DNA of 34,000 bases. Source: Bacteroidales bacterium (GTDB lineage Bacteria; Bacteroidota; Bacteroidia; Bacteroidales; JAIPAH01). Within the stretch, counting starts at the first letter, position 1. Every line of letters starts with the position of its first letter. Positions 3,966-20,534 of the stretch are shown piece by piece. The DNA lies in NCBI GenBank assembly GCA_021740175.1, contig JAIPAH010000019.1, positions 1 to 34,000 of the forward strand, given 5' to 3'. The notes beneath the pieces are model-generated. The model made no database searches. It saw nothing but the letters and a program-made list of their open reading frames with translations, and was not told the DNA's origin. The translations under genes and the position numbers were made by a program.

Positions 3966-4005
3966 AAGCTATTGTTTAATTTTCTTCATTCTAATAAGAC
4001 GAGCA

Positions 4006-4013
4006 CAAAAATA
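4006..4013 (-). promoter_or_regulatory. Probable -7 element for panB-rluA operon
   Basis: On the minus strand this reads TATTTTTG, an exact fit to the Bacteroidota -7 consensus TAnnTTTG, 40 bases before the panB start. I see no good TTG at the -33 position, so the assignment rests on the -7 element and its location. Confidence 0.5.
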
Positions 4014-4109
4014 CAGCCTTAACACGTGATTAGTAAATATAGTTTCGATTTTTTTTTGCCTGATATTTATTATGTGATGGTGATAAACCTACTGAAACCT
4101 TTTATTTAT

Positions 4110-4117
4110 TACATTTG
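4110..4117 (+). promoter_or_regulatory. Probable -7 element for lipoprotein gene
   Basis: TACATTTG fits the Bacteroidota TAnnTTTG consensus and would give a leader of roughly 25 bases before the ATG at 4148. A second match, TAATTTTG, lies at 4131-4138 but is too close to the start to be the better candidate. No clear -33 TTG is present. The location argues against the earlier ATG at 4115, which falls inside this element. Confidence 0.45.
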
Positions 4118-4147
4118 TCAGTTGTTAAAATAATTTTGTTTTCAATT

Positions 4148-5215
4148 ATGAATAAATTCTCCTTAATTATAGCCGGCATTTTCGGTGCTCTGCTTTTCCA
4201 GTCATGTGAAACGGATTTTGATGTCACGGCAGAATGGCAGGATATAACCATAGTGTATGGCTTGCTGAATACGAATGACAGTGTTCATGAAATCAAAATA
4301 AACAAAGCTTTTCTAGGTGATGGGAGTCTTATCGAATATGCCGCCAATGAAGATTCCGCACTTTACGAAAACCTGGATGTCAAACTTCAGGAGCTTAATA
4401 AAGACTCAACCGTAATCGATGAATTCCCGCTTGATACCACCGTAATTCATAATAAAGACACTGCCGGTGCTTTTTTTGCTCCCGACCAGGTGATCTATAC
4501 CACCGGAAGGGATAATAAGGTTTTTCTGGATGATGATTATCTTTATCGGCTTAAAATATACATCCCGGCGCGGGATAAAACCGTCACGGCAACTACCGGC
4601 CTTGTGTACAATAACGACAACCATTTTTCGGAAGACAACTTAACCATTGATAAACCTTCTTTGGGTGGTTTCGGTGAACCTACTATTTATTTCTCTATGA
4701 ATGAAGATTTTTATCAAACAGTAAAGTGGAATACGGCAAAAAACGGCCGGCGCTATCAGCTTGAAATCCATTTTCGATTCCAGGAACGAACCCAAAACGG
4801 CGATATCAAAAAACGAACTATCACATGGTCTTCCTTTGACCTCAAGCAGTCACGTAGCTCCGAAGGTGGAGAAACTATGGAGATTAGGTTCCCCCATACA
4901 AAATTCTATAAATTTGTCGCCGATAATGTCCCCTATGAAAACCAAGAGAAAGAAGATGAAGTATCTTTACGGATCGCTAAAAAAATTGATTTTGAAATCT
5001 CCGTAGCCTCCGATGTTTTTGATACTTACATGCAGATATATGAACCCTCGCAAGGAATCGTAGAATACCGACCGGAATTCTCCAACGTGGAAAACGGGAT
5101 GGGGCTATTTGCCAGCCGTACTTCAAAAACACGTTCCTTTGTTCCATCAATAAATGTAAAAGATATCTTAAACGAAGAATACACCCTCCTCAAGTTTCAA
5201 AAAGTTGATAACTAA
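4148..5215 (+). CDS. Uncharacterised surface lipoprotein (possibly DUF4249-like)
   Basis: From the ATG at 4148 the protein has 355 residues. It opens with a lipoprotein signal peptide (MNKFSLIIAGIFGALLFQSC), with the lipid-carrying Cys at residue 20, so it should be anchored to the outer or inner membrane. An in-frame ATG at 4115 would add 11 residues before an already complete signal peptide and overlaps the likely promoter, so I prefer 4148. The mature part is beta-rich, with the segments ITIVYGLLNTNDSVHEIKIN and ENGMGLFASRTSK near its two ends, an arrangement I associate with DUF4249-type Bacteroidota lipoproteins. No catalytic motif is visible. It is transcribed divergently from panB and is followed by a 215-base gap before dnaK, so it is probably monocistronic. 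Function unknown; the family assignment is tentative. Confidence 0.8.
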   Translation: MNKFSLIIAGIFGALLFQSCETDFDVTAEWQDITIVYGLLNTNDSVHEIKINKAFLGDGSLIEYAANEDSALYENLDVKLQELNKDSTVIDEFPLDTTVIHNKDTAGAFFAPDQVIYTTGRDNKVFLDDDYLYRLKIYIPARDKTVTATTGLVYNNDNHFSEDNLTIDKPSLGGFGEPTIYFSMNEDFYQTVKWNTAKNGRRYQLEIHFRFQERTQNGDIKKRTITWSSFDLKQSRSSEGGETMEIRFPHTKFYKFVADNVPYENQEKEDEVSLRIAKKIDFEISVASDVFDTYMQIYEPSQGIVEYRPEFSNVENGMGLFASRTSKTRSFVPSINVKDILNEEYTLLKFQKVDN

Positions 5216-5370
5216 AAATCAGGAGGTTCAACCCTAATATTTCTTTAAAAGTTTACACACACAAATTCAAGTGCTTAAACCAAACTGTCTTTTTGTCACA
5301 ACACCCAAAACTTCAGTAATTGCTAGACAAATACATGTCATTATTGCATCATAAGGATGTAAAATATTTT

Positions 5371-5386
5371 TGGCATAATGATTGAA
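5371..5386 (+). promoter_or_regulatory. Possible sigma-54-like -24/-12 promoter of dnaK
   Basis: The stretch TGGCATAATGATTGAA has the GG of a -24 box and the TTG of a -12 box at exactly the sigma-54 spacing (consensus TGGCAC-N5-TTGCW), 44 bases before the dnaK ATG. The last conserved position is A instead of C, so it is an imperfect match. No TAnnTTTG element is obvious nearby. Confidence 0.3.
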
Positions 5387-5430
5387 ACGTTCTTTTCTGA
5401 AAAAAAATTTGTAAACAAAAAAGGAATAAA

Positions 5431-7419
5431 ATGGGAAAAGTAATAGGTATAGACCTTGGAACTACGAACTCATGTGTAGCAGTAGTTGAAGGTAAAGATC
5501 CGCAAGTTATACAAAATAGTGAAGGCCGACGCACAACGCCGTCTATTGTTGCGTTTACAGAAAATAATGAACGCAAAATCGGCGACCCGGCAAAACGACA
5601 AGCTATAACGAATTCAGAAAAGACGATTCATTCTATCAAGCGTTTTATGGGAGAGACCTATGATAAAGTTGAGCAAGAAATCAACAGGGTCTCTTACAAA
5701 ATCGAAAAAGGTGACAACAATACCCCGCGAGTTAAGATTGATGATCGGATGTACACACCCCAGGAAATCTCAGCGATGATTCTTCAAAAAATGAAGAAAA
5801 CAGCTGAAGATTATCTGGGTCAAGAGGTTACGGATGCGGTAATAACCGTGCCGGCTTATTTTAGCGATTCACAAAGGCAAGCTACCAAAGAAGCAGGTGA
5901 AATTGCCGGGTTGAATGTAAAAAGAATTATTAATGAGCCGACAGCAGCATCCTTGGCTTACGGGCTGGACAGAAAAGACAAAGATGAGAAAATCGCCGTT
6001 TATGACTTGGGTGGAGGTACTTTTGACATCTCTGTACTCGAGTTAGGCGGTGGTGTTTTTGAAGTTAAATCCACCAGCGGTAATACTCATCTCGGTGGCG
6101 ACGACTTCGATGAGGCTGTCATCAACTGGTTAGCCGAAGAGTTTCTCAAAGACGAAAATATTGATCTTCGGAAAGACCCGATGGCATTGCAGCGATTGAA
6201 AGAAGCTGCGGAAAAAGCCAAAATTGAGCTTTCCAGCGCTCAATCCACGGATATTAATCTGCCATACATTATGCCGGTAGACGGTATTCCGAAGCACTTG
6301 GTCAAGACCCTTACAAGAGCTAAGTTTGATGCGCTGACCGAAGATTTGGTTAAATCAGCCTCAGACCCGATGAAAAAAGCGCTGGATGATGCCGGTTATT
6401 CACCTAGTGACATTGATGAAGTGATTCTTGTAGGAGGTACTACGCGTATGCCTTCTATTCAAAAATCCGTTGAGGATTTCTTTGGTAAGAAACCATCCAA
6501 AGGAATTAACCCCGATGAAGTCGTAGCTTTAGGTGCCGCTATTCAAGGAGCTGTTCTCGGTGGAGATTATCAGAAAGAAGATATCGTACTTCTTGATGTA
6601 ACTCCGCTCTCATTAGGCATCGAAACATTGGGTGGCGTGATGACCAAACTCATTGAGGCTAACACGACTATCCCGACCAAGAAGACGGAAACATTCTCCA
6701 CAGCTGCCGATAATCAAACGTCGGTAGAGATACATGTGCTGCAGGGTGAGCGACCAATGGCTAAAGACAATAAGAGTATCGGTAAATTCCATCTCGATGG
6801 TATTCCACCGGCACCGAGAGGGGTCCCTCAAATTGATGTCACTTTTGACATTGACAGCAATGGCATTATCCACGTATCGGCCAAAGACAAAGGCACAGGC
6901 AAAGAACAGAATATACGCATCGAAGCCAGCTCTACGCTTAGCGAAGAGGAAATCAACAAGATGAAAGAAGAAGCTAAAGCGCATGAAGAAGAGGATAAGA
7001 AACAAAAAGAGCGTGTTGAAAAACTGAACCAGGCCGATGGCTTAATTGCTCAAACTGAAAAACAGATGAAAGATTACGGGGATAAGTTGCCGGCCGATAA
7101 GAAGAAACCGATTGAAGATGCCTTGCAAAAGTTGAAAGATGCCCATCAGAAACAAGAGATGGAAACCATCGATTCAGCTATGGAGGAGCTCAATAAAGCT
7201 TGGCAAGCTGCCAGCCAGGACCTTTACAATGCTCAGCAACAAGAGCAGTCAGGTCAGCAAGGCGGCGGTGAACAAACCCAGGAAGAGAGCCAGGCCAGCG
7301 GCCAGGAAGCTTCATCTGAACAACAGCAGTCTTCGGGCAGTGATGATGAAGTGACAGACGTTGACTTTGAAGAAGTCAATGAAGAAGATAAGAACAAGAA
7401 TAAAGATAAAAATAAATAA
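5431..7419 (+). CDS. dnaK: Molecular chaperone DnaK (Hsp70)
   Basis: DnaK is the cytoplasmic ATP-driven chaperone that binds exposed hydrophobic peptides, working with DnaJ and GrpE. The nucleotide-binding domain (about 1-385) shows [13 protein letters not shown] at the N-terminus, [45 protein letters not shown] and [12 protein letters not shown]. The substrate-binding domain follows, with [17 protein letters not shown], then the helical lid. The 662-residue length is slightly above the usual 630-640 because of a Gln/Gly/Ser-rich linker and a Lys/Asn/Asp-rich tail after the conserved VTDVDFEEV end. AGGAA just before the ATG can serve as a weak ribosome site. dnaJ and grpE are not adjacent. 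A clear terminator follows, so the gene is a single transcription unit. Confidence 0.99.
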
Positions 7420-7438
7420 CAGATAATCCCGATTAGTT

Positions 7439-7477
7439 AAAAGCCATCTTTATCAAAAAAGATGGCTTTTTTATTTT
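7439..7477 (+). terminator. Rho-independent terminator of dnaK
   Basis: A perfect 10-bp stem AAGCCATCTT (7441-7450) pairs with AAGATGGCTT (7459-7468) around an 8-base loop, followed by a T-rich tract to 7477. It lies 20 bases after the dnaK stop. Confidence 0.92.
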
Positions 7478-7530
7478 TCAAAAATTCTTTAATTTTACAT
7501 CATCCTTAAAAAAGTAAAAAGGAGAAAAAG

Positions 7531-7551
7531 ATGAAATACCAATTACACTAA
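7531..7551 (+). promoter_or_regulatory. Possible six-codon leader ORF upstream of the T9SS gene
   Basis: ATG AAA TAC CAA TTA CAC TAA (MKYQLH) sits 24 bases before the ATG at 7576. It is preceded by AAGGAGAAAAAG, a stronger Shine-Dalgarno sequence than most of the real genes in this window have. The related leader at 12185-12228 keeps the downstream part but has lost this ATG and stop. It may be a chance ORF. Confidence 0.25.
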
Positions 7552-7575
7552 TAAAAACTAAAAAATTATTGAATT

Positions 7576-9174
7576 ATGAGAACACTATCTACTCTTTTTA
7601 CAGCAGCATTCATAATGGCTTCAATCTTGTCTTTTGGCCAGAACAAAGAAGTCATTCTTGAAGAGACCTTTGATGACGGTCTGGGCGAATTCACTCAATA
7701 CAGTGTGCTCGACGATGATCTTAACTGGTATTGGGACGAAGAATATGGTGATCCGGCACCATGTGCAACAATGACAGGTTATGGGCAGGTCAACAACGAA
7801 ACGGAAGATTGGCTGATATCCTCTGAATTAGACTTCACAGATTATGAACAACCACGTCTTACGTTCATAGAAGCCATAAATTACGAAGGGGTTGGTGTCA
7901 ACGAAAACCAAAAGGTCATGGTTTCTACGGATTATTCAGGATCGGGTGACCCAAATAATGCTACCTGGGACGAAATGGAAGTTACCAACCGTACCGATGG
8001 CCAATCTTGGAGCTTTATTGAACCCGACCCGGTTGACCTCACCGATTATGAAGGTATGCCAGGTGTTTACATTGCATTTAAGTACACTAGCTCAAGTGAT
8101 AATGCCGCAACATGGGAAATAGACAATATTGTCGTAGAAGAAGCTACGGCCGAAGAACTTATAGTTAATACCCCTAACGGGTTAGAACATTGGCAAAGGG
8201 GTGAAACCTACGAAATTACCTGGACCTCCAACAATTTTGATAACAATGTAAAAATTGAATTGACAGGGGATAACGCCCAGGTTCTTGAAGAATCGGCTGA
8301 AAACACAGGTTCTTATAGCTGGGAAATCCCGTCAGACATTGCTTTAGCAGATGATTATAAAGTAAAAATTTCAGACGTCGATGACGGCACGCCTATGGGC
8401 CAATCCGATACGACTTTCTCTATTATTGACCCGATTTATTTTGAAGGTTTTGAAGAAGATTTCGGTGATTTCATGACAAAAAATGTTACCGGTGAGCAAG
8501 TGTGGCAGCAAGAGACTTATGAAATGCGAAACTATGCCAATATGAGTGGTTATAGCGATGGAGCCGTCGAAAATGAAGACTGGCTTATCTCACCGGCCTT
8601 TGACATGGATGCCTATGAAAATGAAGTCCTTACTTTTGAAAGCGCCGCCAATTATGAAGGCCCTAATATTGAACTGAAAATGTCAACAGACTATGACGGT
8701 TCAAGCGACCCGAGCGAGCAGGGAACATGGTCTGATATAACAGGTGAGGCTGATTGGTCGGAAACAGAGTATAACTGGGTTCCCTCCGGGGAAATTGATC
8801 TTTCAGCAGAAGAAGGCTCCTCCGTATATATAGCTTTTGTTTACAAATCAAACCCGGATGAAGGCGCTATGACTTGGGAAATAGATAATTTCATGCTGCA
8901 GGGAGATGAAACCAACAGTATTGGTGATAACGAGTTTAGCTCCGGCATTTCCATTTACCCGAACCCCTCAAACGGACAGTTTACAGTTGACTCCGAAAAT
9001 CTTGAAAATGCTGAAGTAGCTGTTTACTCCATTACCGGGGCCAAAGTTTATGAAACCCGGATAAGTAACACCAAGCAAAACATGAATCTCTCAAACCTGG
9101 ATAAAGGCATATACACACTGCGTTTTATTACACAGGATAACAAAGTAGGCGTTAAGCAAGTGGTTATCAAATAA
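7576..9174 (+). CDS. Secreted T9SS protein with two choice-of-anchor J (cleaved-adhesin type) domains
   Basis: The 532-residue product starts with a signal peptide (MRTLSTLFTA, cleaved near residue 22). A choice-of-anchor J / cleaved-adhesin-type domain spans about 27-190 (ETEDWLISS, NNATWDEMEV, AATWEIDNIVVEE). A Kre9/KNH-like Ig-fold follows at about 198-288 (LIVNTPNGLEHWQRGETYEI, SYSWEIPSDI), then a second anchor-J domain (about 292-440; ENEDWLISPAFDM, MTWEIDNFML). The last 75 residues are a type A T9SS sorting domain: ISIYPNPSNGQFTV, an internal VAVYSITGAKVYE, GIYTLRF and a basic end QVVIK. It should cross the outer membrane by T9SS and be surface-bound or released; such domains often bind glycans or proteins, but the ligand is unknown. 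It is flanked by terminators and so is monocistronic. Its N-terminal module recurs in the gene at 12229. Confidence 0.92.
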   Translation: MRTLSTLFTAAFIMASILSFGQNKEVILEETFDDGLGEFTQYSVLDDDLNWYWDEEYGDPAPCATMTGYGQVNNETEDWLISSELDFTDYEQPRLTFIEAINYEGVGVNENQKVMVSTDYSGSGDPNNATWDEMEVTNRTDGQSWSFIEPDPVDLTDYEGMPGVYIAFKYTSSSDNAATWEIDNIVVEEATAEELIVNTPNGLEHWQRGETYEITWTSNNFDNNVKIELTGDNAQVLEESAENTGSYSWEIPSDIALADDYKVKISDVDDGTPMGQSDTTFSIIDPIYFEGFEEDFGDFMTKNVTGEQVWQQETYEMRNYANMSGYSDGAVENEDWLISPAFDMDAYENEVLTFESAANYEGPNIELKMSTDYDGSSDPSEQGTWSDITGEADWSETEYNWVPSGEIDLSAEEGSSVYIAFVYKSNPDEGAMTWEIDNFMLQGDETNSIGDNEFSSGISIYPNPSNGQFTVDSENLENAEVAVYSITGAKVYETRISNTKQNMNLSNLDKGIYTLRFITQDNKVGVKQVVIK

Positions 9175-9200
9175 CAACGAAAGGTTCTTATAAAATTTAA

Positions 9201-9233
9201 AAGCCGCCATCATTTTTATGGCGGCTTTTTTTT
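9201..9233 (+). terminator. Rho-independent terminator
   Basis: AAGCCGCCAT (9201-9210) pairs perfectly with ATGGCGGCTT (9218-9227) around a 7-base loop and runs into eight T residues. It lies 26 bases after the stop at 9174. A closely similar hairpin follows the next gene. Confidence 0.93.
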
Positions 9234-9372
9234 ACTCTTTATCTCTAAAGAATTAATTTTAACTTTACTTTTAAGATTTTTAATAATAATTTTATATAAG
9301 AATACTAATATCTATAATCAAATTTGCATCTTTACATCGAATTAATTCATAAACGACAAAACTTACTTAAGG

Positions 9373-11820
9373 ATGAAAAAGTTTACATTTTTAATTTTAG
9401 CTTTTTTCGGTGTCGGAATTTTAGGCCACGCCCAAATCATCAGTCAATACATCGAAACCAATTCAGGAACAGAACCAAAGGGAATTGAAATCTGGAACAA
9501 TACCGATTCCCAGCTTGATTTTAATGCCAATACCCTCTTGATTGAGCAAGGGACCAATGGAAACCCTTTATCAGAAGAGTACACTTTAGAATCCGGCACG
9601 CTGGATGCAGGAGATGTGCTTGTAATTGGCACATCCGATTTGCAAGCCACCACTGAAGGCAATGGAGCGGATTTTTACGAGCATACATTTCAGTTTAATG
9701 GCAACGATGCCTTAGCCGTAAATTACGGAGGAACGACAATCGATGTCTTCGGTATGCCTGAAGAAGATCCGGGCAGTGCCTGGGAAGGCAATGGTGTATC
9801 TACGGCAGATCAAAACATAGGGCTGCTCGGCGGCATCACATCGGGGGACCCTGATGGATGGACCGACCCAAGTGAGCGTTTTGAAACCGTCAATACCGAT
9901 CCGTCGGGAGATAATGGTGACGAAGGATTTGGGATTGCACCTGAAGGTGGCGACAACCAAAACCCCTCGATTACTAATATTGTGCAAACCCCGGAAGTCG
10001 TTACTTCTTCCGATGAAGTAAACGTCTCGGCCGATGTGACCGACAGCGACGGAACGGTGGAAAACGTGGAACTCCATTGGGGTACCGAATCCGGCAACCT
10101 GGACAACACCATCAACATGTCGACAACGCGTGCCACGTACACAACCGACAGCCCCATCCCATCCCAGGCTGACGGGACAACGGTATACTACGAAGTTTTT
10201 GCCGAAGATAACGAAAGCGGCACCTCCACATCCGCCGAATTAAGCTATACCGTCACCGACCCGGCTACCACCGGCCTGCCCTACGAGCAGACATTTGACG
10301 CGGACCTGGGAGATACTTATACCTACAGCGTCTCAGGCGACGATGAAGAGTGGTACTGGTACGATGACGATGGAAATGGTGTTGCAGCTATGAATGGTTA
10401 TGACACCGGCGACACGGAAATCGACTGGCTCATCCTGCCGGGTATCAATCTCGATGAGTATGAAAGCGAGTTTATGACTTTCGAATCATGGTATCAGTAC
10501 GGTACGGACAACGAAAGCAATTACCTCAAACTGTACTATTCGACCGATTATGAAGGGGTCGGCGATCCCTCGGAAGCCACCTGGACGGAGCTGGAGTATA
10601 ACCAGCCCGAAAGCGAACAAACCTGGGCTTCTTCAGGCGAGGTCGACCTCTCGGGCATTTCCGGCACTCAAGTATATATTGGCTACAAGTATAAATATGA
10701 ACCGGGGATGTATCGCCTGTGGCAAGTTGACAATATTTCCATACAGGAAGAAGGGAGCAACGAAACCCCGGAAATTACCAATGTCACTCATACACCTGAG
10801 GTTGTCACTTCCTCCGATGAGGTGAATGTTTCGGCTGATGTCACCGATCCCGATGGTTCCGTGGATGTGGTAGAACTTAACTGGGGGACTGAATCGGGTA
10901 ACCTGACCAACATTATCAATATGTCGACCAGTCGCGCCACATACACCACCGATAGCCCGATTCCGTCACAACCCGACGGCACAACGGTTTATTACAAAGT
11001 TTACGCCATGGATAACGGTGGCGGCGAATCGACCTCTTCGGAAATGAGCTACACCGTCACCGACCCGGCTACCACCGGCCTGCCTTACGAGCAGACATTT
11101 GACGCGGACCTGGGAGATGCCTATACCTACAGTGTTTCAGGCGATACCAAGGAGTGGTACTGGAGTGAATATGACGGGAATGGTTTTGCGGCCATGAACG
11201 GTTATGACAGCGGCGATACGGAAATTGACTGGCTCATCCTGCCGGGTATTAATTTCGATGAGTATGAAAACGAATTCATGACCTTCGACACATGGTACAA
11301 TTACGGCGAGGACAATGAGAATAATTACCTAAAGCTTTACTATTCAACCGATTATGAAGGCGTAGGTGATCCCTCGGAAGCCACCTGGACGGAGCTGGAG
11401 TATAACCAGCCCGAAAGTGCTGAGACATGGGCTTCTTCAGGTGATATTGATCTCTCGGGCATTTCCGGTACACAAGTGTACATTGGCTACAAGTACCGTT
11501 ATGAACAGGGCATGTACCGCCAGTGGGAAGTCGACAATATATCCATCGATTATAGTACCGGTATTGCATCGAAATCAGATTTAAATAAACCGTTTTCCAT
11601 TTACCCGAATCCCTCGAGCGGGCAGTTTACAGTTGACTCCGAAAATCTTGAAAATGCTGAAGTAGCTGTTTACTCCATTACAGGGGCTAAAGTTTATGAA
11701 ACCCGGATAAACAGCAACAAGCAAAACATAAATCTTTCAAACCTGGATAAAGGCGTGTACACACTGCGTTTTATTACACAGGATAATAAAGTGTCCGTCC
11801 GGCAGGTAGTCATCAAATAG
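9373..11820 (+). CDS. Secreted T9SS protein: lamin-tail domain plus two Ig/anchor-J repeats
   Basis: The 815-residue product has a signal peptide (MKKFTFLILAFFGVGILGHA). It continues with a lamin-tail (LTD)-like domain at about 21-190 (QIISQYIETNSGTEPKGIEI, VLVIGTSDLQA, DVFGMPEEDPG). Two copies of a 268-residue unit follow, each an Ig-like segment (TPEVVTSSDEVNVSADVTD) and a choice-of-anchor J domain (DTEIDWLILPGIN, PSEATWTELEYNQPES, WQVDNISI). The last 75 residues are a type A T9SS sorting domain almost identical to that of the gene at 7576. The protein is strikingly acidic with no catalytic motif, which suggests an adhesin or surface-binding role; that is inference. AAGG lies directly before the ATG. 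The upstream sequence around 9286-9372 is repeated at 11932-12014. A terminator follows. Confidence 0.92.
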   Translation: MKKFTFLILAFFGVGILGHAQIISQYIETNSGTEPKGIEIWNNTDSQLDFNANTLLIEQGTNGNPLSEEYTLESGTLDAGDVLVIGTSDLQATTEGNGADFYEHTFQFNGNDALAVNYGGTTIDVFGMPEEDPGSAWEGNGVSTADQNIGLLGGITSGDPDGWTDPSERFETVNTDPSGDNGDEGFGIAPEGGDNQNPSITNIVQTPEVVTSSDEVNVSADVTDSDGTVENVELHWGTESGNLDNTINMSTTRATYTTDSPIPSQADGTTVYYEVFAEDNESGTSTSAELSYTVTDPATTGLPYEQTFDADLGDTYTYSVSGDDEEWYWYDDDGNGVAAMNGYDTGDTEIDWLILPGINLDEYESEFMTFESWYQYGTDNESNYLKLYYSTDYEGVGDPSEATWTELEYNQPESEQTWASSGEVDLSGISGTQVYIGYKYKYEPGMYRLWQVDNISIQEEGSNETPEITNVTHTPEVVTSSDEVNVSADVTDPDGSVDVVELNWGTESGNLTNIINMSTSRATYTTDSPIPSQPDGTTVYYKVYAMDNGGGESTSSEMSYTVTDPATTGLPYEQTFDADLGDAYTYSVSGDTKEWYWSEYDGNGFAAMNGYDSGDTEIDWLILPGINFDEYENEFMTFDTWYNYGEDNENNYLKLYYSTDYEGVGDPSEATWTELEYNQPESAETWASSGDIDLSGISGTQVYIGYKYRYEQGMYRQWEVDNISIDYSTGIASKSDLNKPFSIYPNPSSGQFTVDSENLENAEVAVYSITGAKVYETRINSNKQNINLSNLDKGVYTLRFITQDNKVSVRQVVIK
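9973..11565 (+). repeat. Duplicated block copy A (two 804-bp units)
   Basis: Two tandem coding units with a period of 804 bp (for example CCGGAAGTCG at 9991 and its counterpart at 10795) encode the Ig plus anchor-J module. The whole two-unit block is repeated at 12823-14415 with a constant offset of 2850, so there is no net insertion or deletion. In the stretches I compared by eye, about nine bases in ten agree. Confidence 0.9.
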
Positions 11821-11844
11821 CAATTAAAGATTTTTATAAAACTC

Positions 11845-11878
11845 AAAACCGCCATTTTTTTATGGCGGTTTTTTTTTT
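11845..11878 (+). terminator. Rho-independent terminator
   Basis: AAAACCGCCAT (11845-11855) pairs with ATGGCGGTTTT (11862-11872) around a 6-T loop, followed by a long T tract to 11878. It lies 25 bases after the stop at 11820. Confidence 0.93.
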
Positions 11879-12014
11879 AACTTTATTATTGGATTCATTT
11901 TAATATTGTTTTGAGGTGTTTTAACATTAGTTTTACATAAGAAAGATTACTATTTGTAATCAAATTTGCATATTAACATCGAATGAATTCATGAATGACA
12001 AAATTTACTTAAGT

Positions 12015-12135
12015 ATGAAAATAAGTTTATGATGCTAGAAACCTGGTACCAATACGGTGAGAATGATGAAAACAATTTCCTGAAACTTTATTATTCGACC
12101 GATTATGCCAGTGTCGGTGATGTTTCGACGGCTAG
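12015..12135 (+). pseudogene. Deleted relic of a fourth repeat-type T9SS gene
   Basis: The region from about 11932 to 12020 repeats the promoter and start of the gene at 9373: CAAATTTGCAT and the ATG both sit at an offset of 2642. After the copied start codon (12015) the frame closes within six codons. The sequence then jumps directly into the middle of an anchor-J domain: from 12029 it encodes ETWYQYGENDENNFLKLYY and STDYASVGD, matching FETLYQYGEDDENNYLKLYY in the gene at 12229. Similarity stops near 12130 and the frame runs on into the leader of the next gene. I read this as a copy of the 9373-type gene that lost most of its body by deletion. The ATG at 12029 opens a 61-codon frame, but nothing suggests it is a working gene. 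Confidence 0.8.
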
Positions 12136-12228
12136 GCGGAACAAACTTAGCCACCACATAACCGGAAAACTCATAGACAAAGCTGAAATTCCAATTACAC
12201 GAATAACAAACTAAAATTTTATTGAATT

Positions 12229-14673
12229 ATGAGAACATTATCTACTCTTTTTACAGCAGTATTAATAATGGCTTCAATTTTGACTTTTGGTCAGAACAGA
12301 GAGGTCATTCTTGAAGAGACCTTTGACGGTGGCTTGGGAGAATTCACTCAATACAGTGTGATCAATGATGATCTTAATTGGTATTGGGACGAAGAATATG
12401 GTGACCCAGCGCCATGTGCAACGATGTCAGGTTATGACGGAGAAAACTACGAAACGGAAGATTGGCTAATATCTTCAGCTTTAGCCTTTACAGACTATGA
12501 ACAAATAACGCTTACGTTCGTGGAGGCCATCAATTATGAGAATACCGGTGTAGACGAGAACGAAAAGGTCATGGTTTCTACGGATTATTCAGGCTCGGGT
12601 AACCCAAATAATGCTACCTGGGATGAAATGGAAGTTACCAACCGGACCGATGGCCAATCATGGGACTTTATTGAGCCCGACCCGGTAGACCTCTCCAGTT
12701 ATGCCGGCATGTCAGGTGTTTATATTGCATTCAGATATACAAGCTCTACTGATAATGCTGCAACTTGGGAAGTCGACAATATCTCCGTAGAGGGAGAAGG
12801 GAGCAACGCAACCCCCGAAATCACCAATATCACCCAAACCCCGGAAGTCGTCACTTCTTCCGACGAAGTGAACGTTTCGGCCGATGTGACCGATAGTGAC
12901 GGTACGGTGGAAAACGTGGAACTCCACTGGGGTACTGAGTCCGGCAGCCTGAACAATACCATCAACATGTCGACAACCCGCGCTACGTATACCACCGACA
13001 GTCCAATTCCGGCCCAGGAAGACGGGACGACGGTGTACTACGAGGTTTTTGCCGAAGATAACGAAGGTGGCACATCAACCTCCTCCGAATTAAGCTATAC
13101 CGTTACCGACCCGGCTACCACCGGCCTGCCTTACGAGCAGACATTTGATTCGGATTTGGGAGATACCTACACCTACAGCGTCTCCGGCGATGACGAAGAA
13201 TGGTACTGGTACGACGACGGCGGTAATGGCGTTGCAGCTATGAATGGTTATGACACCGGCGACACGGAAATCGACTGGCTCATCCTGCCGGGTATCAATC
13301 TCGATGAGTATGAAAGCGAGTTCATGACCTTCGAAACATTGTACCAATACGGGGAGGATGATGAGAACAATTACCTCAAACTGTATTATTCGACCGATTA
13401 TGAAGGGGTCGGCGATCCCTCGGAAGCCACCTGGACGGAGCTGGATTACAACCAGCCTGAAAGTGCTGAAACCTGGGCTTCTTCAGGCGAAGTCGACCTC
13501 TCGGGCATTTCCGGTACTCAAGTATATATTGGCTACAAGTATAAATATGAACCGGGGATGTATCGCCTGTGGCAAGTCGACAATATTTCCATAGAGGGAG
13601 AAGGGGGCAACGAAACCCCGGAAATTACCAATGTCACTCATACGCCTGAGGTTGTCACTTCCTCCGATGAGGTGAATGTATCGGCTGATGTCACCGATCC
13701 CGATGGTTCCGTGGATGTGGTAGAACTTAACTGGGGGACTGAATCGGGTAACCTGACCAACACTATCAATATGTCGACCACTCGCGCCACATACACCACC
13801 GATAGCCCGATCCCGCCACAACCCGACGGCACAACGGTTTATTACGAAGTTTACGCCATGGATAACGGCGGCGGCGAATCGACTTCTTCGGAAATGAGCT
13901 ACACCGTAACCGACCCGGCTACCACCGGCCTACCCTACGATCAGAATTTCGACTCGGACCTGGGTGATACCTACACCTACAGTGTTTCAGGCGATACCAA
14001 GGAGTGGTACTGGAGTGAATACGACGGGAACGGTTTTGCAGCCATGAACGGTTATGACAGCGGCGACACGGAAATCGACTGGCTCATCCTGCCGGGTATT
14101 AATTTCGATGAGTACGAAAACGAGTTCATGACCTTCGACACATGGTACAATTACGGCGAGGACAATGAGAATAATTACCTAAAGCTTTACTATTCAACCG
14201 ATTATGAAGGCGTAGGTGATCCATCGGAAGCCACCTGGACGGAGCTGGAGTATAACCAGCCCGAAAGTGCTGAAACCTGGGCTTCTTCAGGAGACATAGA
14301 TCTCTCGGGCATTTCCGGTACACAAGTGTACATTGGCTACAAGTACCGTTATGAACAGGGCATGTACCGCCAGTGGGAAGTCGACAATATATCCATCGAT
14401 TATAGTACCGGTATTGAGCCTGTTGCAAATAATGGCGATCGAATGAGTGTTTATCCCAATCCGGCTCAATCATCGTTTACACTAAAAACAGATTTGGAGA
14501 AAGGCTCGGAAGTATACATTTATTCTGTTACCGGGCAGAGAGTACACCGGGAAACTTTGAAAAGCAACGAAACCCAAATCAGTGTTAATAACCTGGAGCC
14601 AGGAATTTATACAGTTCGTATTCATGAGACAGGAAATCAAAAGACTATTTCAGAAAAATTAATTATCCGGTAA
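12229..14673 (+). CDS. Mosaic secreted T9SS protein: anchor-J domain, two Ig/anchor-J repeats, distinct sorting domain
   Basis: The 814-residue product starts with a signal peptide and a choice-of-anchor J domain (to about residue 190) that nearly copy the gene at 7576 (MRTLSTLFTA, LNWYWDEEYGDPAPCATM). From about residue 198 it switches to the two 268-residue Ig/anchor-J units of the gene at 9373 (TPEVVTSSDEVNVSADVTD, DTEIDWLILPGIN). It then ends in a T9SS sorting domain (SVYPNPAQSSFTLKTD, VYIYSVTGQRV, GIYTVRIHE, KLIIR) clearly different from the one shared by its two neighbours. The modules are joined in frame with no sign of decay, so the gene is probably functional. It should be exported by T9SS to the surface; the ligand is unknown. 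The 44 bases before the start also match the leader of the 7576 gene. Confidence 0.92.
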   Translation: MRTLSTLFTAVLIMASILTFGQNREVILEETFDGGLGEFTQYSVINDDLNWYWDEEYGDPAPCATMSGYDGENYETEDWLISSALAFTDYEQITLTFVEAINYENTGVDENEKVMVSTDYSGSGNPNNATWDEMEVTNRTDGQSWDFIEPDPVDLSSYAGMSGVYIAFRYTSSTDNAATWEVDNISVEGEGSNATPEITNITQTPEVVTSSDEVNVSADVTDSDGTVENVELHWGTESGSLNNTINMSTTRATYTTDSPIPAQEDGTTVYYEVFAEDNEGGTSTSSELSYTVTDPATTGLPYEQTFDSDLGDTYTYSVSGDDEEWYWYDDGGNGVAAMNGYDTGDTEIDWLILPGINLDEYESEFMTFETLYQYGEDDENNYLKLYYSTDYEGVGDPSEATWTELDYNQPESAETWASSGEVDLSGISGTQVYIGYKYKYEPGMYRLWQVDNISIEGEGGNETPEITNVTHTPEVVTSSDEVNVSADVTDPDGSVDVVELNWGTESGNLTNTINMSTTRATYTTDSPIPPQPDGTTVYYEVYAMDNGGGESTSSEMSYTVTDPATTGLPYDQNFDSDLGDTYTYSVSGDTKEWYWSEYDGNGFAAMNGYDSGDTEIDWLILPGINFDEYENEFMTFDTWYNYGEDNENNYLKLYYSTDYEGVGDPSEATWTELEYNQPESAETWASSGDIDLSGISGTQVYIGYKYRYEQGMYRQWEVDNISIDYSTGIEPVANNGDRMSVYPNPAQSSFTLKTDLEKGSEVYIYSVTGQRVHRETLKSNETQISVNNLEPGIYTVRIHETGNQKTISEKLIIR
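12823..14415 (+). repeat. Duplicated block copy B (two 804-bp units)
   Basis: This is the second copy of the block at 9973-11565, colinear at an offset of exactly 2850 from 9991/12841 through GGTATT at 11565/14415. First unit matches first unit and second matches second, so the block was duplicated or converted as a pair. Similarity ends abruptly after 14415, where the two genes enter different sorting domains. Confidence 0.9.
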
Positions 14674-14740
14674 GCTTTTCAATAGCTAACTTGGAGATAG
14701 CAGTAAAGGGGGCATTTCGACCTCTACTGAATCAATTAAA

Positions 14741-14783
14741 ACGCCCTGTAACCCCCCATTGGGATTACAGGGCGTATTTTTTT
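14741..14783 (+). terminator. Rho-independent terminator (usable from both strands)
   Basis: ACGCCCTGTAA (14741-14751) pairs with TTACAGGGCGT (14765-14775), and a T tract follows to 14783. It ends the T9SS gene at 12229 and, read backwards, could also stop transcription from the minus-strand gene at 14814. Confidence 0.9.
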
Positions 14784-14785
14784 GA

Positions 14786-14810
14786 TAAAAAAGCCCCCAT
14801 TTCAAGGGCT
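14786..14810 (-). terminator. Terminator of the minus-strand gene 14814-15317
   Basis: On the minus strand AGCCC TTGAAATGG GGGCT forms a short stem followed by six T residues, 3 bases after the stop codon. The stem is short, but position and T tract support it. Confidence 0.65.
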
Positions 14811-14813
14811 ATT

Positions 14814-15317
14814 TTATTTTGTTTCGTTTTGCGGCGTAAAAGTACCCTGGCCCTCATTATCTTCCGAAGGCCCTGACAGATTTTCTTTAGGAGGGTGGAA
14901 ATACTCCATCTTTTGCCATTTCTGAATATCGTCGATTCTCTTTCGCTCCTCGAAATAAGGTGGCAAACCCGGTGCAATATATTCCTTCGAATAAACCAAA
15001 TGATCTTTCGACAAACGCACGGGTGAAACCAATCCCTTATAAGTCGGGCCAATTTCAGCCCATACATCTCTCTTCATATCCATTAGGAAGATCGAAGTAT
15101 GCGGGCCGTTATGCGGGTCCAGCTCTATCCATTTTTGCACGGCCAGATACCTGGAATCAGTACTCCACAAAAAGTTGCGTGCGAAATACATATCTTTAAC
15201 TATATGATTATTAATCTTCATCCTGAAAAATGAAGGCCCGAAACGGATGTCTCCTATATACCTGAAACTTAAAATATAATTCCCGTCAGGTGAAATATTT
15301 CTATTCTTTTTTTTCAT
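14814..15317 (-). CDS. Uncharacterised protein with propeller-like strands
   Basis: The 167-residue product has no signal peptide or membrane segment. Residues 8-20 (ISPDGNYILSFRY) and 49-62 (LWSTDSRYLAVQKW) resemble the SPDG/WS-D-S-YLA strands of TolB/WD-type propeller repeats, but it has room for only two to three blades. The tail (about 140-167) is Pro/Glu/Gly/Asn-rich and probably disordered. GAGGGAG a few bases before the ATG is a good Shine-Dalgarno site and fixes the start. It lies 175 bases downstream of the O-methyltransferase on the same strand. I do not recognise the family; it could be a fragment of a longer propeller protein, an immunity-type protein or a stand-alone small protein. 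Confidence 0.7.
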   Translation of the reverse strand: MKKKNRNISPDGNYILSFRYIGDIRFGPSFFRMKINNHIVKDMYFARNFLWSTDSRYLAVQKWIELDPHNGPHTSIFLMDMKRDVWAEIGPTYKGLVSPVRLSKDHLVYSKEYIAPGLPPYFEERKRIDDIQKWQKMEYFHPPKENLSGPSEDNEGQGTFTPQNETK

Positions 15318-15492
15318 AACTCCCTCTGCTATTTATTATATGGAAATATCTAAATATGGCTAATGGACAATGTTTAGAATAGGCTATTTGTTCAAAAGAA
15401 AAATGTTAACGTTTTGTATACAGAGATTTCTGTGGTATACCTATCAACACCTGAAAAGATATGGAGCCCTTAAAAGACAGCCGAAAAGTTTG

Positions 15493-16131
15493 TTATAATT
15501 TTCTTAACAACATTAAGCCGTCTCTTAAAGGCAACAAGACATTTTCCACTTCGGGGTCATTATGCACATGATTATTAAAAGCAACAATACCAGCCGTTTC
15601 CGGGTCATCTGCCGCGGCTTCGTCAACTACTTTACCATTCCACAAGGCATTATCGGCAAGAATAAATCCTCCCACTCGCAATTTGGGTTTAACGATCTCA
15701 TAATAAGTGAGGTAATCCTTTTTCTCAGCATCTATAAATACAAGATCGAAAGGCCCGTCGAGATTCTTTGTTAGATCCCGGGCATCTCCAATCATCAGAT
15801 CAATCACCGATTGCAAACCCGCTTTCTTTACATAATGCTTGATAAAATCTTCCAGCTCCCGTTCCATCTCAAGGGTAATAAGTTTCCCCCCGCTTCGTAT
15901 GCCGTCAGCAAGACAAATAGCTGAATAGCCGGTATAGGTTCCGATTTCCAGCACCTTCTGAGGTTGTATCATATGGCTGACCATCTTCAGGTAAGCCCCC
16001 TGGATGTGTCCTGATAGCATCCTTGGTTTGGTAGCCTTCAAGTGGGTTTGCCGGTTGAGCTCATAGAGCACTTCATCTTCCTTAGTGGTATGCTGTTCGA
16101 TATATTCTTCCAGTCGTTTATCAATCATCAT
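15493..16131 (-). CDS. Class I SAM-dependent O-methyltransferase (COG4122 / caffeoyl-CoA OMT-like)
   Basis: The 212-residue cytoplasmic protein should transfer a methyl group from S-adenosylmethionine to a hydroxyl group. Motif I is LEIGTYTGYSA (61-71), the acidic motif after strand beta-2 is ITLEME (about 85-90), and the metal-binding DAEKKDY segment lies inside LVFIDAEKKDYLTYY, followed by GGFILADNALWNGKV. Together these define the cation-dependent caffeoyl-CoA OMT-like family. The substrate in bacteria is generally unknown and cannot be read from the sequence. The start overlaps the stop of the M16 peptidase gene in an ATGA arrangement (16128-16131), implying translational coupling. A second ATG follows immediately, so the true start may be one codon later. 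Confidence 0.93.
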   Translation of the reverse strand: MMIDKRLEEYIEQHTTKEDEVLYELNRQTHLKATKPRMLSGHIQGAYLKMVSHMIQPQKVLEIGTYTGYSAICLADGIRSGGKLITLEMERELEDFIKHYVKKAGLQSVIDLMIGDARDLTKNLDGPFDLVFIDAEKKDYLTYYEIVKPKLRVGGFILADNALWNGKVVDEAAADDPETAGIVAFNNHVHNDPEVENVLLPLRDGLMLLRKL

Positions 16132-17369
16132 GTTCGTTTTTTGTAAACCAACGTGGTTAGTTGATTTTCATCAAAAATCTCATTCGCTACTTCCTGTATC
16201 TCTTTGTCTGAAATACTTTCGATTTCTGTTGCCAGTTCCTGCAACGGTTTCACTTCATCAAATAATAACCGGTTCTTAGCCAGGGAAATCATCTCATTAA
16301 GGTTCGACTCATAATTAAGAGCCATTTGCCCGATGAGTTGTTTCCGGGCCATGTTAAGTTGTACCGGTCCCAGATTTTTCTCCCTGAGATGTTTCAATTC
16401 ATTGAAGACAAGATCAATCGATCGGTCGAGGTTCCCGTTACTGCAACTCACATACACACTGAAAAGACCCGAATCGGTATAGGGCATGTAGTTGGATTCA
16501 ACCATATAGGCATAACCCTTTCTTTCGCGGATAGAGAGGTTTAAGCGGGAATTCATCCCCGGACCGCCCAGGATATTATTCAACAAATTCAACACCAGCT
16601 TTTTTCTCGGCCTCAAGTGGCTGTAACCGATATTTCCTATCATGCAATGATTCTGAAATACCCTTTTATTTAATGCAGAATATTCCGGCTTATACCCTTC
16701 AAATTTCGCTCTGCTCTCCTGTCTCCGGGAAGCGGGCATCTGACTGAAAAACTTTTCCGCTATTCGGATAAGTTCTCTCATGGAAATATTGCCTACGGAA
16801 GCCACTACCATCTGGTCAGTGGTGTAGTTTCGCTCAAGGAAACGCTGAATGTGCCGCCGATCAAATTTTCGGATATTTTTTTTACTGCCAAGGATATTGC
16901 TGCCTAAGCCATGATGTTTGTACACCATTTCTTCAAACCGGTCGAAAATCATCTCCCCCGGATTATCCTTATAAGAATCGATTTCGTCAAGGATCACTTC
17001 CCGCTCCTTTTTTAGCTCATGCTCAGGAAAAGTGGAATTAAAAACAATGTCGGCCAGCAATTCAAAGGTACGGCTGTAATATTCTTTCAGAAAGGAAGCA
17101 TAAATCATGGTATCTTCCTTCGTTGTGAAGGCATTCAGATCAGCCCCTATTTTATCGAGGCGACTAATGACGTGGTAAGCTTTTCGCCGATGGGTTCCTT
17201 TAAAAAAAGTGTGTTCAATAAAATGCGCCAAACCCTGCTCGCCTTCCAGCTCATCGCGACTTCCGGCATTAATCATCACTCCGGCATGGGCTACCATTCC
17301 CGGTACCTGCTTATGTACTATACGAATCCCGTTTGATAGCGTATAATATTGATACAATTCTTTTTCCAT
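16128..17369 (-). CDS. M16-family (pitrilysin/MPP-like) zinc metallopeptidase
   Basis: The inverted zinc motif HFIEH is at residues 49-53, and the distal ligand is probably Glu129 in VILDEIDSYKDNPGE, at the usual distance. The 413 residues make one N-terminal catalytic and one C-terminal M16 domain (the latter with RERKGYAYMVESNY, the R/Y substrate-binding segment), as in the processing-peptidase-like bacterial forms. There is no signal peptide, so it is predicted to be cytoplasmic. The gene overlaps the O-methyltransferase by 4 bases, so the two are one operon. A strong -7 match lies only 9 bases before the ATG. Substrate unknown. Confidence 0.95.
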   Translation of the reverse strand: MEKELYQYYTLSNGIRIVHKQVPGMVAHAGVMINAGSRDELEGEQGLAHFIEHTFFKGTHRRKAYHVISRLDKIGADLNAFTTKEDTMIYASFLKEYYSRTFELLADIVFNSTFPEHELKKEREVILDEIDSYKDNPGEMIFDRFEEMVYKHHGLGSNILGSKKNIRKFDRRHIQRFLERNYTTDQMVVASVGNISMRELIRIAEKFFSQMPASRRQESRAKFEGYKPEYSALNKRVFQNHCMIGNIGYSHLRPRKKLVLNLLNNILGGPGMNSRLNLSIRERKGYAYMVESNYMPYTDSGLFSVYVSCSNGNLDRSIDLVFNELKHLREKNLGPVQLNMARKQLIGQMALNYESNLNEMISLAKNRLLFDEVKPLQELATEIESISDKEIQEVANEIFDENQLTTLVYKKRT

Positions 17370-17377
17370 AGCTTTTG

Positions 17378-17385
17378 CAAAATTA
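17378..17385 (-). promoter_or_regulatory. Possible -7 element for the M16-OMT operon
   Basis: The minus strand reads TAATTTTG, an exact TAnnTTTG match, ending 9 bases before the ATG at 17369. If used, the mRNA would be leaderless or nearly so. There is no convincing -33 TTG. Confidence 0.35.
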
Positions 17386-17553
17386 AAGATTTAGTGAATT
17401 CCGCAGAATGTATTGAATGAAAGCTCAAAGAAGAAATCGGCTCTATTGATATACGAAAGTCTCAGGATCAGTTGGCAGTTGGCAGGAAGCAGTATGAATT
17501 ATTTTCAAAATCAATTTACTATTTTCTTATCAGAAAGATATTCTATTGGACAC

Positions 17554-17582
17554 TTGAATTTCCAACAACTTTTCTATATTTA
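17554..17582 (+). promoter_or_regulatory. Probable promoter of the MFS gene
   Basis: TTG at 17554-17556 and TATATTTA at 17575-17582 are separated by 18 bases, close to the Bacteroidota -33/-7 pattern, with one mismatch at the last -7 position. The ATG is 47 bases further on. Confidence 0.5.
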
Positions 17583-17628
17583 CAGTTGAATTCAGGGAAT
17601 ACCTTCCATTCCCGTTAGAATAAAACGC

Positions 17629-18810
17629 ATGGACAGACTGGATTTACGTCAAAAACGAAACTTTTACATTATCCTGTCAGTGACATTGCTCTCGGTAGTT
17701 GGAGTAACTACCATCACCCCTGTATTCCCGGAGATGAGTAAAGAGCTCAATGTGTCGCGCGATAAAATCGGGTTGCTCATCACCGTATTTACCTTGCCAG
17801 GTGCCGTCTTAGCTCCTATAATCGGAGTAGCTGCCGACCGGTGGGGGCGTAAGAAGGTGTTGATTCCAGCGCTAATCCTGTTTGGAATTAGCGGGACACT
17901 ATGTTTTTTTGCCCGCGAATTTGAAGTCATTTTGGGGCTCCGTTTCTTCCAGGGTCTTGGCGCCGCCTGCCTCGGCATCATTAATACAACGCTAATAGGC
18001 GACATATTTTCAGGTAATCAAAAAGCCAAAGCTATGGGATACAACAGTGGAGCATTAAGTGTTGCTGCTGCGCTATTTCCGGCAATTGGCGGCCTTTTAG
18101 CTACCATCAACTGGTATTATCCTTTTTTGATACCCGCTTTGGCTTTAGGGGTCGCTGTGATAGTATATTTTTACCTGGACAACCCCGAACCCGAAGAGAA
18201 ACCCCAATTAAAAAATTATTTTCAGAATATTATCAAATCCATCTTTACCAAAGAAGCCATTACATTATTTTTACTTTGCTTCACCACATTTATCCTGCTT
18301 TTCGGGGTTATTATGACCTATCTCCCGATTTTCCTGAAAGATCAATTCAACCTGACAAGTAGCGAAATCGGATTCCTTTTATCCTTTCTGGCCATATCCA
18401 CAGGCATAGTAGCATCTCAGCTGGACAGGATATCAAAGATGCTTCCGATGAAATTTCTTATTATCTTCGGGTTTTTCAGCTACCTGGTAGGGTTCCTGGC
18501 CATACCCTACGCAGAAAATATTTACAGCATGCTCATTCTTTTATTAATCATTGGCATCGGTCAGGGCATTAATGTTCCCACGATTTTCAATATTCTGACA
18601 AGCATTGCCCCACTAGACCACCGGGGCGCTTTTATGTCGGTTAACAGTATGACCATTCGCGCCGGGCAAACGGTGGGGCCATTAATTGGCGGTGTTTTAT
18701 TCAGCCTGTGGGGAATCTCCTGGGTCTTCTGGGCGGGAGCCATTGTAGCATCGTTCTTTATACTGGTTGCAATGCTTTTTATCCCGTCTTTTGCTCATTC
18801 AAAAACTTAA
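17629..18810 (+). CDS. Major facilitator superfamily drug/metabolite exporter (DHA1-like)
   Basis: The 393-residue protein has about 12 hydrophobic helices and belongs in the inner membrane. MFS motif A, GVAADRWGRKKV, lies in the loop between helices 2 and 3, and helix 5 carries the antiporter-type motif GPLIGG-like variant FPAIGGLLA. The N-half reads TPVFPEMSKELNVS, typical of DHA1 proton-coupled efflux pumps. The mid loop (NPEPEEKPQLKNYF) separates the two six-helix halves. It is probably a proton antiporter for small molecules; the substrate is unknown. It converges on the sulfotransferase gene, whose stop is only 11 bases away, with no obvious terminator between them. Confidence 0.93.
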   Translation: MDRLDLRQKRNFYIILSVTLLSVVGVTTITPVFPEMSKELNVSRDKIGLLITVFTLPGAVLAPIIGVAADRWGRKKVLIPALILFGISGTLCFFAREFEVILGLRFFQGLGAACLGIINTTLIGDIFSGNQKAKAMGYNSGALSVAAALFPAIGGLLATINWYYPFLIPALALGVAVIVYFYLDNPEPEEKPQLKNYFQNIIKSIFTKEAITLFLLCFTTFILLFGVIMTYLPIFLKDQFNLTSSEIGFLLSFLAISTGIVASQLDRISKMLPMKFLIIFGFFSYLVGFLAIPYAENIYSMLILLLIIGIGQGINVPTIFNILTSIAPLDHRGAFMSVNSMTIRAGQTVGPLIGGVLFSLWGISWVFWAGAIVASFFILVAMLFIPSFAHSKT

Positions 18811-18821
18811 TACCTTAATAA

Positions 18822-20003
18822 TCAACCGGCTATATTAGCATTTGGGGATTTGGGATCCAACTTAGAGTAACCCCACAAATCAAAAGCAAAATCCCAATGC
18901 TTATTGATTAACCGGACATCTTCCGGCTGGATCTCGTAATCCATCTTCTCCCACTTGGGGCGATTATCGATATAGTGCTTAAACTCATTATAAGCTTTGT
19001 CAAAGCCCTGCAAATCAAGTTTTTCATAAACTTCACCGAGTGTTGATAAGGGTTGCCCCGTGATATCCCGATAGCTGATTTCCACCAGCTGATTGGGATT
19101 CAAAAGTTCTTTTTGCTCAAGATATTTCTGATGTAATTTTTGATAAACGTGCAGCACCAAACTCTTTTTTTCCTCTTCGGAAATGGTTTGCAAAGCAACC
19201 GTATTCAGCACATGTGTCCACAGTTTAAGGTTAGAATAAAACACCTCATAGGGATTCCGGTGAATGAAGATAAATTTTGCACCCGGATAGATATCCAGTA
19301 GATACTTCATCCGCGCCGTATCACCGGGATTCTTAATAAGCAGCCTGTCTTCCCGGTTTTTTAGATAAACCTTGTTTAAAACGGAACGCATGGTATCTCT
19401 CCATTCCTGTAATTCCTGATCGGAAAGGTCTTCGAGAAAAAGATACTTATCAAAATAAAATTTAGCGGATTGCGGGAAAAGATGGGCCCAGTGATATGTA
19501 AACTCGGATATCTCGCTTATCAAAGCCGTATCCGACTCCGAGGGAGTATCCAGGTTCATGGTTTTAGAAATATTACTCCGCCACTCCTTTACCGGGCTAA
19601 AAAAATCCATAACCCTCGACAAAACGGGCTTAAAAAAATCCTCCGTGGTCAGAAAATTATCCGAAAAGAAATTTTGGAATTTATTCTGATAAAAAAATCC
19701 GGGATCCCGGCTAAGTAAATAGTGAGCAAAAGTCGTCCCGCTGCGCCAGTGCCCGATAATAAATACGGGAGATTTTTCAGGACCAATCCTGTCCACTTCT
19801 TCTTTAAATTTCCTGCGCTCAATTAATCGAAAAGGCTCTGATAAAAGCAGCTTAAAATAGATAAGGTAAAGCATGTTTTTGTTGGGGCCTCCATTGAAAG
19901 CCTGATGCTGCTTCAATTTCCGGGTAAACGTGGTAAGCGGACTTTCGGATTTTTCCATTTTTTTGGTTTTTATTTTAAAATTTTCGCCCGTCGAAAACAA
20001 CAT
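18822..20003 (-). CDS. Sulfotransferase-family protein (Sulfotransfer_3 type)
   Basis: The 393-residue frame carries the PAPS-binding P-loop GHWRSGTTF at residues 84-92 (5'-phosphosulfate loop) and the later KFIFIHRNPYEVFYSNL, which fits the 3'-phosphate-binding strand and helix. It should move a sulfuryl group from PAPS to an acceptor that cannot be identified here. Residues 44-58 are hydrophobic, but I see no clear signal peptide. An alternative start at Met16 (19958) follows a run of A-rich sequence typical of starts in this group and would give 378 residues; I consider it at least as likely as the listed start. A -7 element at 20047-20054 fits either. No PAPS-synthesis genes are nearby. 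Confidence 0.9.
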   Translation of the reverse strand: MLFSTGENFKIKTKKMEKSESPLTTFTRKLKQHQAFNGGPNKNMLYLIYFKLLLSEPFRLIERRKFKEEVDRIGPEKSPVFIIGHWRSGTTFAHYLLSRDPGFFYQNKFQNFFSDNFLTTEDFFKPVLSRVMDFFSPVKEWRSNISKTMNLDTPSESDTALISEISEFTYHWAHLFPQSAKFYFDKYLFLEDLSDQELQEWRDTMRSVLNKVYLKNREDRLLIKNPGDTARMKYLLDIYPGAKFIFIHRNPYEVFYSNLKLWTHVLNTVALQTISEEEKKSLVLHVYQKLHQKYLEQKELLNPNQLVEISYRDITGQPLSTLGEVYEKLDLQGFDKAYNEFKHYIDNRPKWEKMDYEIQPEDVRLINKHWDFAFDLWGYSKLDPKSPNANIAG

Positions 20004-20046
20004 CCATTTTTAATATCCAAATCAATCTCTCCAAACGCAATTGCCG

Positions 20047-20054
20047 CAAAGATA
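20047..20054 (-). promoter_or_regulatory. Probable -7 element for the sulfotransferase gene
   Basis: The minus strand reads TATCTTTG followed by C, a full match to TAnnTTTGC, 44 bases upstream of the longest start and 89 bases upstream of the alternative start. A -33 TTG is not evident. Confidence 0.5.
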
Positions 20055-20097
20055 ATAAATCTCGGGGGCTTAATTAATAAATGGTATTTTAATAATA

Positions 20098-20441
20098 TTA
20101 TTCCATAATCTCATCCGACCATAATTTGTCTAAGAATATGTGCCAGGGCATAACCAGGATTTCACCCACCTTACGTGGATACGCATCCAAACTTATAAGA
20201 ATCAACTGCTTTGTGGTATATTCCTCTGCAAAACTTTTCAATCCCTTCATATGAAGCAGGGTAGCTTGCTCAACGGCCTTTACCTCAATGGCTACTCAAA
20301 AACATCAGAAAGTAAAAGATCAAACCACAGGGAGTTAGGATACAGTGCTTTAAGTAAAGTACTTTTCCCGGTTTGCCGGTGTCCCCATAAAAACAAACTC
20401 TCATTTCCTGCACTGCGGAAATCCTGTTTTCTTAAATACAT
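20098..20441 (-). pseudogene. Internally deleted DUF4143-type AAA ATPase
   Basis: From an ATG at 20441 the minus strand encodes MYLRKQDFRSAGNESLFLWG and then HRQTGKSTLLKALYP. This is the start and Walker A motif of the prokaryotic DUF4143 ATPases, and it continues to LLLSDVFE before a stop. One frame over, immediately after, the C-terminal end of the same family appears: AIEVKAVEQATLLHMKGLKS, then LISLDAYPRKVGEILVMPW and HIFLDKLW, ending at 20098. The several hundred codons between, including Walker B and the DUF4143 core, are missing. The gene is therefore a deletion plus frameshift remnant. The opposite strand contains a 117-codon frame (20140-20493) that is a shadow of this. Confidence 0.85.
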
Positions 20442-20534
20442 GCATTTTAAAAGTAATTGTTTAAATTATCATGATATTTTAAATCATAGATAAATATTAT
20501 CATAATAAATAACAACTCCTTTGACACTACCCAT

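Follow-up and report, generated by a model that had tools for sequence, protein, structure and literature searches.

The window analysed here, 34,000 bases long, is the entire contig C183 of a Bacteroidales genome of 3.43 Mb in 239 contigs. Its species is represented by one MAG, 79.65% complete, and one genome per species was compared throughout. dnaK (5431-7419) is followed by three tandem genes on the plus strand, here called A (7576-9174), B (9373-11820) and C (12229-14673). Gene A encodes a putative signal peptide, a choice-of-anchor-J (J) module a, an Ig-like domain of the Kre9/KNH type (Pfam), a second J module b and a T9SS tail. Gene B carries an LTD-like N-terminal domain, a weak resemblance below the Pfam cut-off, followed by two copies (R1 and R2) of an internal repeat and a tail. 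This repeat, present in both B and C, measures 804 bp and consists of an Ig-like domain plus a J module; R1 and R2 are 79-81% alike. The 814-aa product of C contains three J modules, two Ig-like domains and a T9SS tail. By the J-module profile (NF038128, cut-off 30 bits), the three modules of C score 56.4, 49.6 and 46.3 bits, and B and A have two modules each. In a profile search, the C-terminal sorting domain TIGR04183/PF18962 was found in A, B and C with 49.8, 52.1 and 48.8 bits, respectively (cut-off 23). Hydrophobic N-termini ending in FGQ or HAQ were seen by eye; the signal peptides are putative. The T9SS sortase PorU is encoded in the genome (1387, 1313 and 575 bits versus a cut-off of 420), and the PorU-type genes, all above the NCBIfam cut-off, lie at G000:C237:367-3711(-), 4227-7526(-) and G000:C100:120-2639(-), two of them being adjacent. 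A, B and C are predicted modular surface proteins secreted by T9SS, in which jelly-roll J modules and Ig-like domains are arranged as beads on a string.

An AlphaFold2 model of residues 21-299 of C reached a mean pLDDT of 91. Foldseek searches with this two-domain model returned, among other matches, the cleaved-adhesin domains K1, K2 and K3 of Lys-gingipain (4itc, 3km5 and 3m1h), which are matched in part (TMt 0.58-0.66, 18-19% identity), along with MAM-Ig modules and carbohydrate-binding jelly rolls. On the basis of these fold matches, A, B and C are probably adhesins. As none of the three matched the cleaved-adhesin Pfam family (PF07675) at E 0.001, their kinship with gingipains is one of fold and evolutionary mode.

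Further genes with T9SS-type tails occur in this genome. A second tandem trio of T9SS-tail genes is located at 25996-30432 of the window (25996-27504, 27506-28954 and 28978-30432). Its second and third genes are 45% identical as proteins over their full length, and the first shares with the second only its tail and 41 bp around the start (90%). An A-like paralogue (J-Ig-J-tail, approx. 65-68% to A) lies on the minus strand of another contig (L036, G000:C185, 12-1520), where it is cut by the contig start; this contig also bears a TonB-receptor-like gene.

Gene C is an in-frame mosaic. The initial annotation had matched its leader and first 190 codons to gene A, and indeed 12175-12791 aligns with 7523-8138 at 84.1% (BLASTN; 617 columns, 1 gap), A-type homology being clear from approx. 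12181, 48 bases 5′ of the ATG. The centre of C resembles B at the constant offset of 2850 noted before, over 1613 ungapped bases instead of the earlier 1593 (12804-14416 versus 9954-11566; 92.3%, BLASTN). All E-values were printed as 0.0, which excludes chance. The frame, previously described as intact over both joins, is open throughout, and differences between B and C fall mostly on the third codon position (19, 15 and 90 at positions one to three), indicating that C has been kept as a protein. In a maximum likelihood tree of J modules, the first module of C groups with the first module of A and its orthologues (100/96), the second with the first of B (97/94) and the third with the second of B (91/90).

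Of the two breakpoints proposed initially, 12790-12823 and 14415, the latter was borne out, the similarity of B and C ending at 11566/14416, just 5′ of the T9SS tail. The first join could be refined and is tripartite. A-type sequence comprising the 48-base leader, the signal peptide and J module a extends from 12181 to 12766. It is followed by a crossover zone (12767-12838), in which a repeat J module ends and an R1/R2-type linker follows, and from approx. 12839 by an R1-type Ig domain, the beginning of R1 and R2 of C (12839-14416, offset 2850 from B). The crossover zone is 80-89% identical to the end of a repeat J module plus the R1-R2 linker, as against at most 65% to A and 32-66% to B's own pre-R1 linker. 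In fact, present B has no R1-R2-type linker ahead of its R1-type Ig domain. The Ig domain of C is 85-92% identical from approx. 12839 to the R1 copies and to R2 of a congener. In the AlphaFold2 model, the crossover coincides with the beginning of the last J strand (residues 159-171), where a conserved W-x-(V/I)-D-N-I motif is common to both parents.

The view that C was assembled from its two upstream neighbours therefore holds for the A-type 5′ end and the B-like centre. It does not hold for the tail (14417-14673), which comes from neither, nor for the linker, which stems from between two repeats; moreover, B itself has a swapped tail. The tail of C is orthologous to that of the single B gene of the congener and occupies the same place next to gene D. 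Hence, the 3′ half of C is the old B gene, and B with its A-type tail is a mosaic too. Gene A is the donor of the 5′ end of C and of the tail of B. The A-type region in B and the B-C spacer (11567-12029, with clear homology from 11594) comprises tail, terminator, spacer and a copied B start codon: 11594-12029 is a copy of the 3′ end of A and the A-B spacer (8948-9385; 83.7%, BLASTN) that extends through the start codon of a B-type gene. The spacer copy is 79.6% identical. Neither the A-B nor the B-C spacer matches the Bacteroidetes promoter consensus (TTG / TAnnTTTG) better than expected by chance.

The copied B start is fused at AGTATGAAAA, a microhomology of approx. 10 bp, to a remnant of a further repeat J module (12012-12131). 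Nearest to R1 of C (79%), this fossil is unlike any of the present repeats; its translation is still that of a module, and its differences are most frequent at third positions. The fossil represents the 5′ half and the junction at 12767 the 3′ end of a repeat J module, and they flank the A-type insert in correct order and orientation. They are the two sides of one J module interrupted by the A-type segment. A short stretch of 49 bases ahead of the A-type leader (12132-12180) has no match elsewhere in the genome. Thus, A-, B- or repeat-type sequence accounts for almost the whole of B, C and the spacer between them, and the breakpoints lie at the edges of modules and preserve the frame.

The ends of tandem duplications can form chimeric genes, and gene conversion drives concerted evolution. 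The A-B-C locus resembles such cases in its novel joins at duplication ends, in-frame fusion and uneven homogenisation, and differs from them in that it is an array in a bacterium, in which two genes are mosaic and a fossil has been preserved. It is quite probable that recombination within the array led from A and B to the mosaic C, made possible by the repeated homology between modules. In a first step, unequal crossover at the linker between J module and tail would have produced a tandem duplication that joined R2 of B to the tail of A and duplicated this tail, the terminator, the spacer and the following B gene. Secondly, the extra B copy would have lost its signal peptide and N-terminal domain through a deletion at the microhomology of approx. 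10 bp, which brought the start codon up against the middle of a repeat J module. Thirdly, a copy of the A leader, signal peptide and first J module would have been joined at the conserved last strand (TWEVDNI) of the interrupted J module, whereby C gained a secretion signal and an N-terminal module ahead of R1-R2 and the original B tail. For this, the A-type donor copy must have had one end without homology (the 49 bases at 12132-12180). Finally, later gene conversion between B and C would have homogenised R2. The array would thereby have gained a third surface protein, whose modules are newly ordered and which is under purifying selection. The order of the steps is inferred, and the fossil and the linker, the two traces that bear on it, suggest a third repeat in the donor.

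A scan of contigs for other species of the genus returned the same congener only, the Bacteroidales MAG Tobar18m-G3, accession JAIPBX01. Its locus is colinear with window positions 1-10201 and 12925-20442 and consists of A, B with a C-type tail and gene D. None of the congener contigs searched has a further A-type 5′ end or an A-type tail on B. As to a possible hybrid nature (B/C) of the single B gene, the informative sites are mixed. In the congener (L035), the R2 Ig domain is of the R1 type and approx. 87-91% identical to the first Ig domain of C near its start; the R2 Ig domain of the window differs, a contrast that amounts to module replacement within one gene. The N-terminal domain of B (window 9373-9957 versus L034) has a dS of 0.28 to the congener, as compared to 0.47-1.04 for seven flanking genes measured, and recent interspecies exchange or strong constraint is possible.

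Synonymous distances (NG86) bear on the age of the segments. For the A-type 5′ segment they form a star (A-C 0.56, A-congener A 0.50, C-congener A 0.52). In contrast to R1, in which dS is 0.43 between B and C and 0.56-0.61 between species, the corresponding values of R2 are 0.15 and 0.72-0.84. Likewise, B and C differ at 91 of 804 positions in R1 and 33 of 809 in R2 (Fisher P 3.7e-8), though both lie in one ungapped block. Such uneven identity shows that gene conversion does occur at the locus. In the simplest reading, the segments differ in age: the mosaic arose close to the time of the species split, to which the 5′ copy appears to date back, and gene conversion homogenised R2 later. dN/dS in the mosaic segments is 0.05-0.27, indicating that the products are kept by purifying selection, and gives no sign of diversifying selection. 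The suggestion that such shuffling is a source of new surface variants gains no support from a 5′ copy whose dS is close to that between A and its congener counterpart or from these low dN/dS values. A general annotation of the gene products adjoining the array brought neither an invertible element nor a recombinase to notice.

The same data leave room for an older origin, which we rate slightly below an even chance: the A-B-C array would predate the species split, and in the congener a single recombination event between the R1-R2 blocks of B and of C would have deleted 2850 bases, unless these are still hidden at a contig break. The shuffling would be the same, only older. In accordance with this are the star of the 5′ segment, codon-model tests that lean to A plus congener A (AU P 0.07 against A and C as the closest pair, not decisive) and 93% of column bootstraps for A with the congener's A. 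Dating of the 5′ copy by codon models with the C185 paralogue as outgroup gave no decision. Furthermore, two contigs of the congener meet inside R1 with an exact overlap of 127 bp, as left by a tandem loop in a de Bruijn graph. An assembler leaves just such an overlap at a branching k-mer. The extra 2850 bases may be hidden in the congener, and a short loop contig with a further copy could have been dropped from the assembly. Against an older origin stands the absence of any congener contig with a second A-type 5′ end or an A-type tail on B. In addition, A and B are favoured as the closest pair for tail and spacer (91% of bootstraps) and B and C for R1-R2, a pattern that points to events of more recent date or to subsequent conversion.

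It is improbable that C is a separate older paralogue in which gene conversion replaced 5′ end and centre by sequence from A and B. Conversion does take place, as the varying identity within the B-C block shows, but the orthology of the C tail to the congener's B tail beside gene D marks the 3′ half of C as old B, and the copied spacer, the copied B start and the fossil need duplication and deletion, not conversion alone. An assembly chimera would be conceivable in a MAG, where repeats are known to cause misjoins. We regard it as very improbable and rejected it: copies that differ by 4-21%, in-frame joins, mainly synonymous differences and a diverged spacer copy are not makeable by misjoined reads. 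It is extremely improbable that C is an independent orthologue that has this domain order without descending from its neighbours, and this reading was likewise rejected. J and Ig modules occur widely among the Bacteroidales, but the nucleotide identity of 84-92% to the neighbours is far above that to any other family, and a search of 295 Bacteroidales genomes for a single-gene orthologue in distant relatives found no gene outside the genus that aligns with the whole of C. The best pieces there cover approx. 300-344 residues at 55-61%. Domain shuffling in a tandem array, as claimed at the outset, is well supported by segment homology, the module tree, the fossil and the lack of a gene of the same order outside the genus.

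The closest known case is that of the Porphyromonas gingivalis gingipains, T9SS proteins with adhesin domains for which rearrangement of domains and allelic exchange have been described (PMC5266723). RgpA, Kgp and HagA, too, are modular surface proteins secreted by T9SS in a member of the Bacteroidales; they share with A-B-C the repeated jelly-roll adhesin modules and the occurrence of variants distinguished by module, and K1, K2 and K3 are the domains matched by the J fold. In contrast, the A-B-C proteins have no protease part, form a tandem array, belong to a MAG lineage rather than an oral pathogen and share approx. 19% identity with the K domains in their J module; their shuffling, traced in one genome per species, takes in signal peptide, tail, terminator and spacer. 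Putative T9SS adhesins listed for Prevotella intermedia include proteins with choice-of-anchor J domains (PMC11969387). These NF038128 plus TIGR04183 proteins have the same J modules and type A sorting tail; what distinguishes A-B-C is that module provenance was traced between neighbours. A search of the literature available here found no paper joining T9SS with domain shuffling. This kind of domain shuffling is already known, and A-B-C is a real, well-resolved further case.

Adjacent J-module T9SS genes with high identity over one segment only were found in at least four other families, and such sharing may be common in Bacteroidales. For instance, neighbours have the C-terminal 167 residues in common at 65% with an unrelated remainder (L062), one module at 66% with a remainder at 32% (L054), 480 residues at 66% with tails at 33% (L053), or the middle approx. 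280 residues at 56-61% with tails at 25-29% (L055, L056 and L059). As the loci were picked for having two hits, a biased choice, these examples are a lead, not a rate. In another genome (L058, G213, 5425-6882), near-perfect tandem repeats with a period of approx. 636 bp (98%) and without a long open frame adjoin the gene for a 1525-aa J-Ig repeat protein.

In summary, the locus shows that recombination between neighbours can rebuild modular T9SS surface proteins beyond a well-studied oral pathogen. Its intermediate steps can still be read from the two mosaic genes, the copied unit of terminator, spacer and start, the join at a microhomology and the fossil J module, and its exact breakpoints can be compared with related species. 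Tentatively, J-module T9SS arrays could be general sites of domain shuffling in Bacteroidales, in which neighbours keep exchanging 5′ ends, modules and tails where the edges of their modules are homologous. If so, new secreted adhesins would be built in place, and truncated copies would be revived by capturing the signal peptide of a neighbour.
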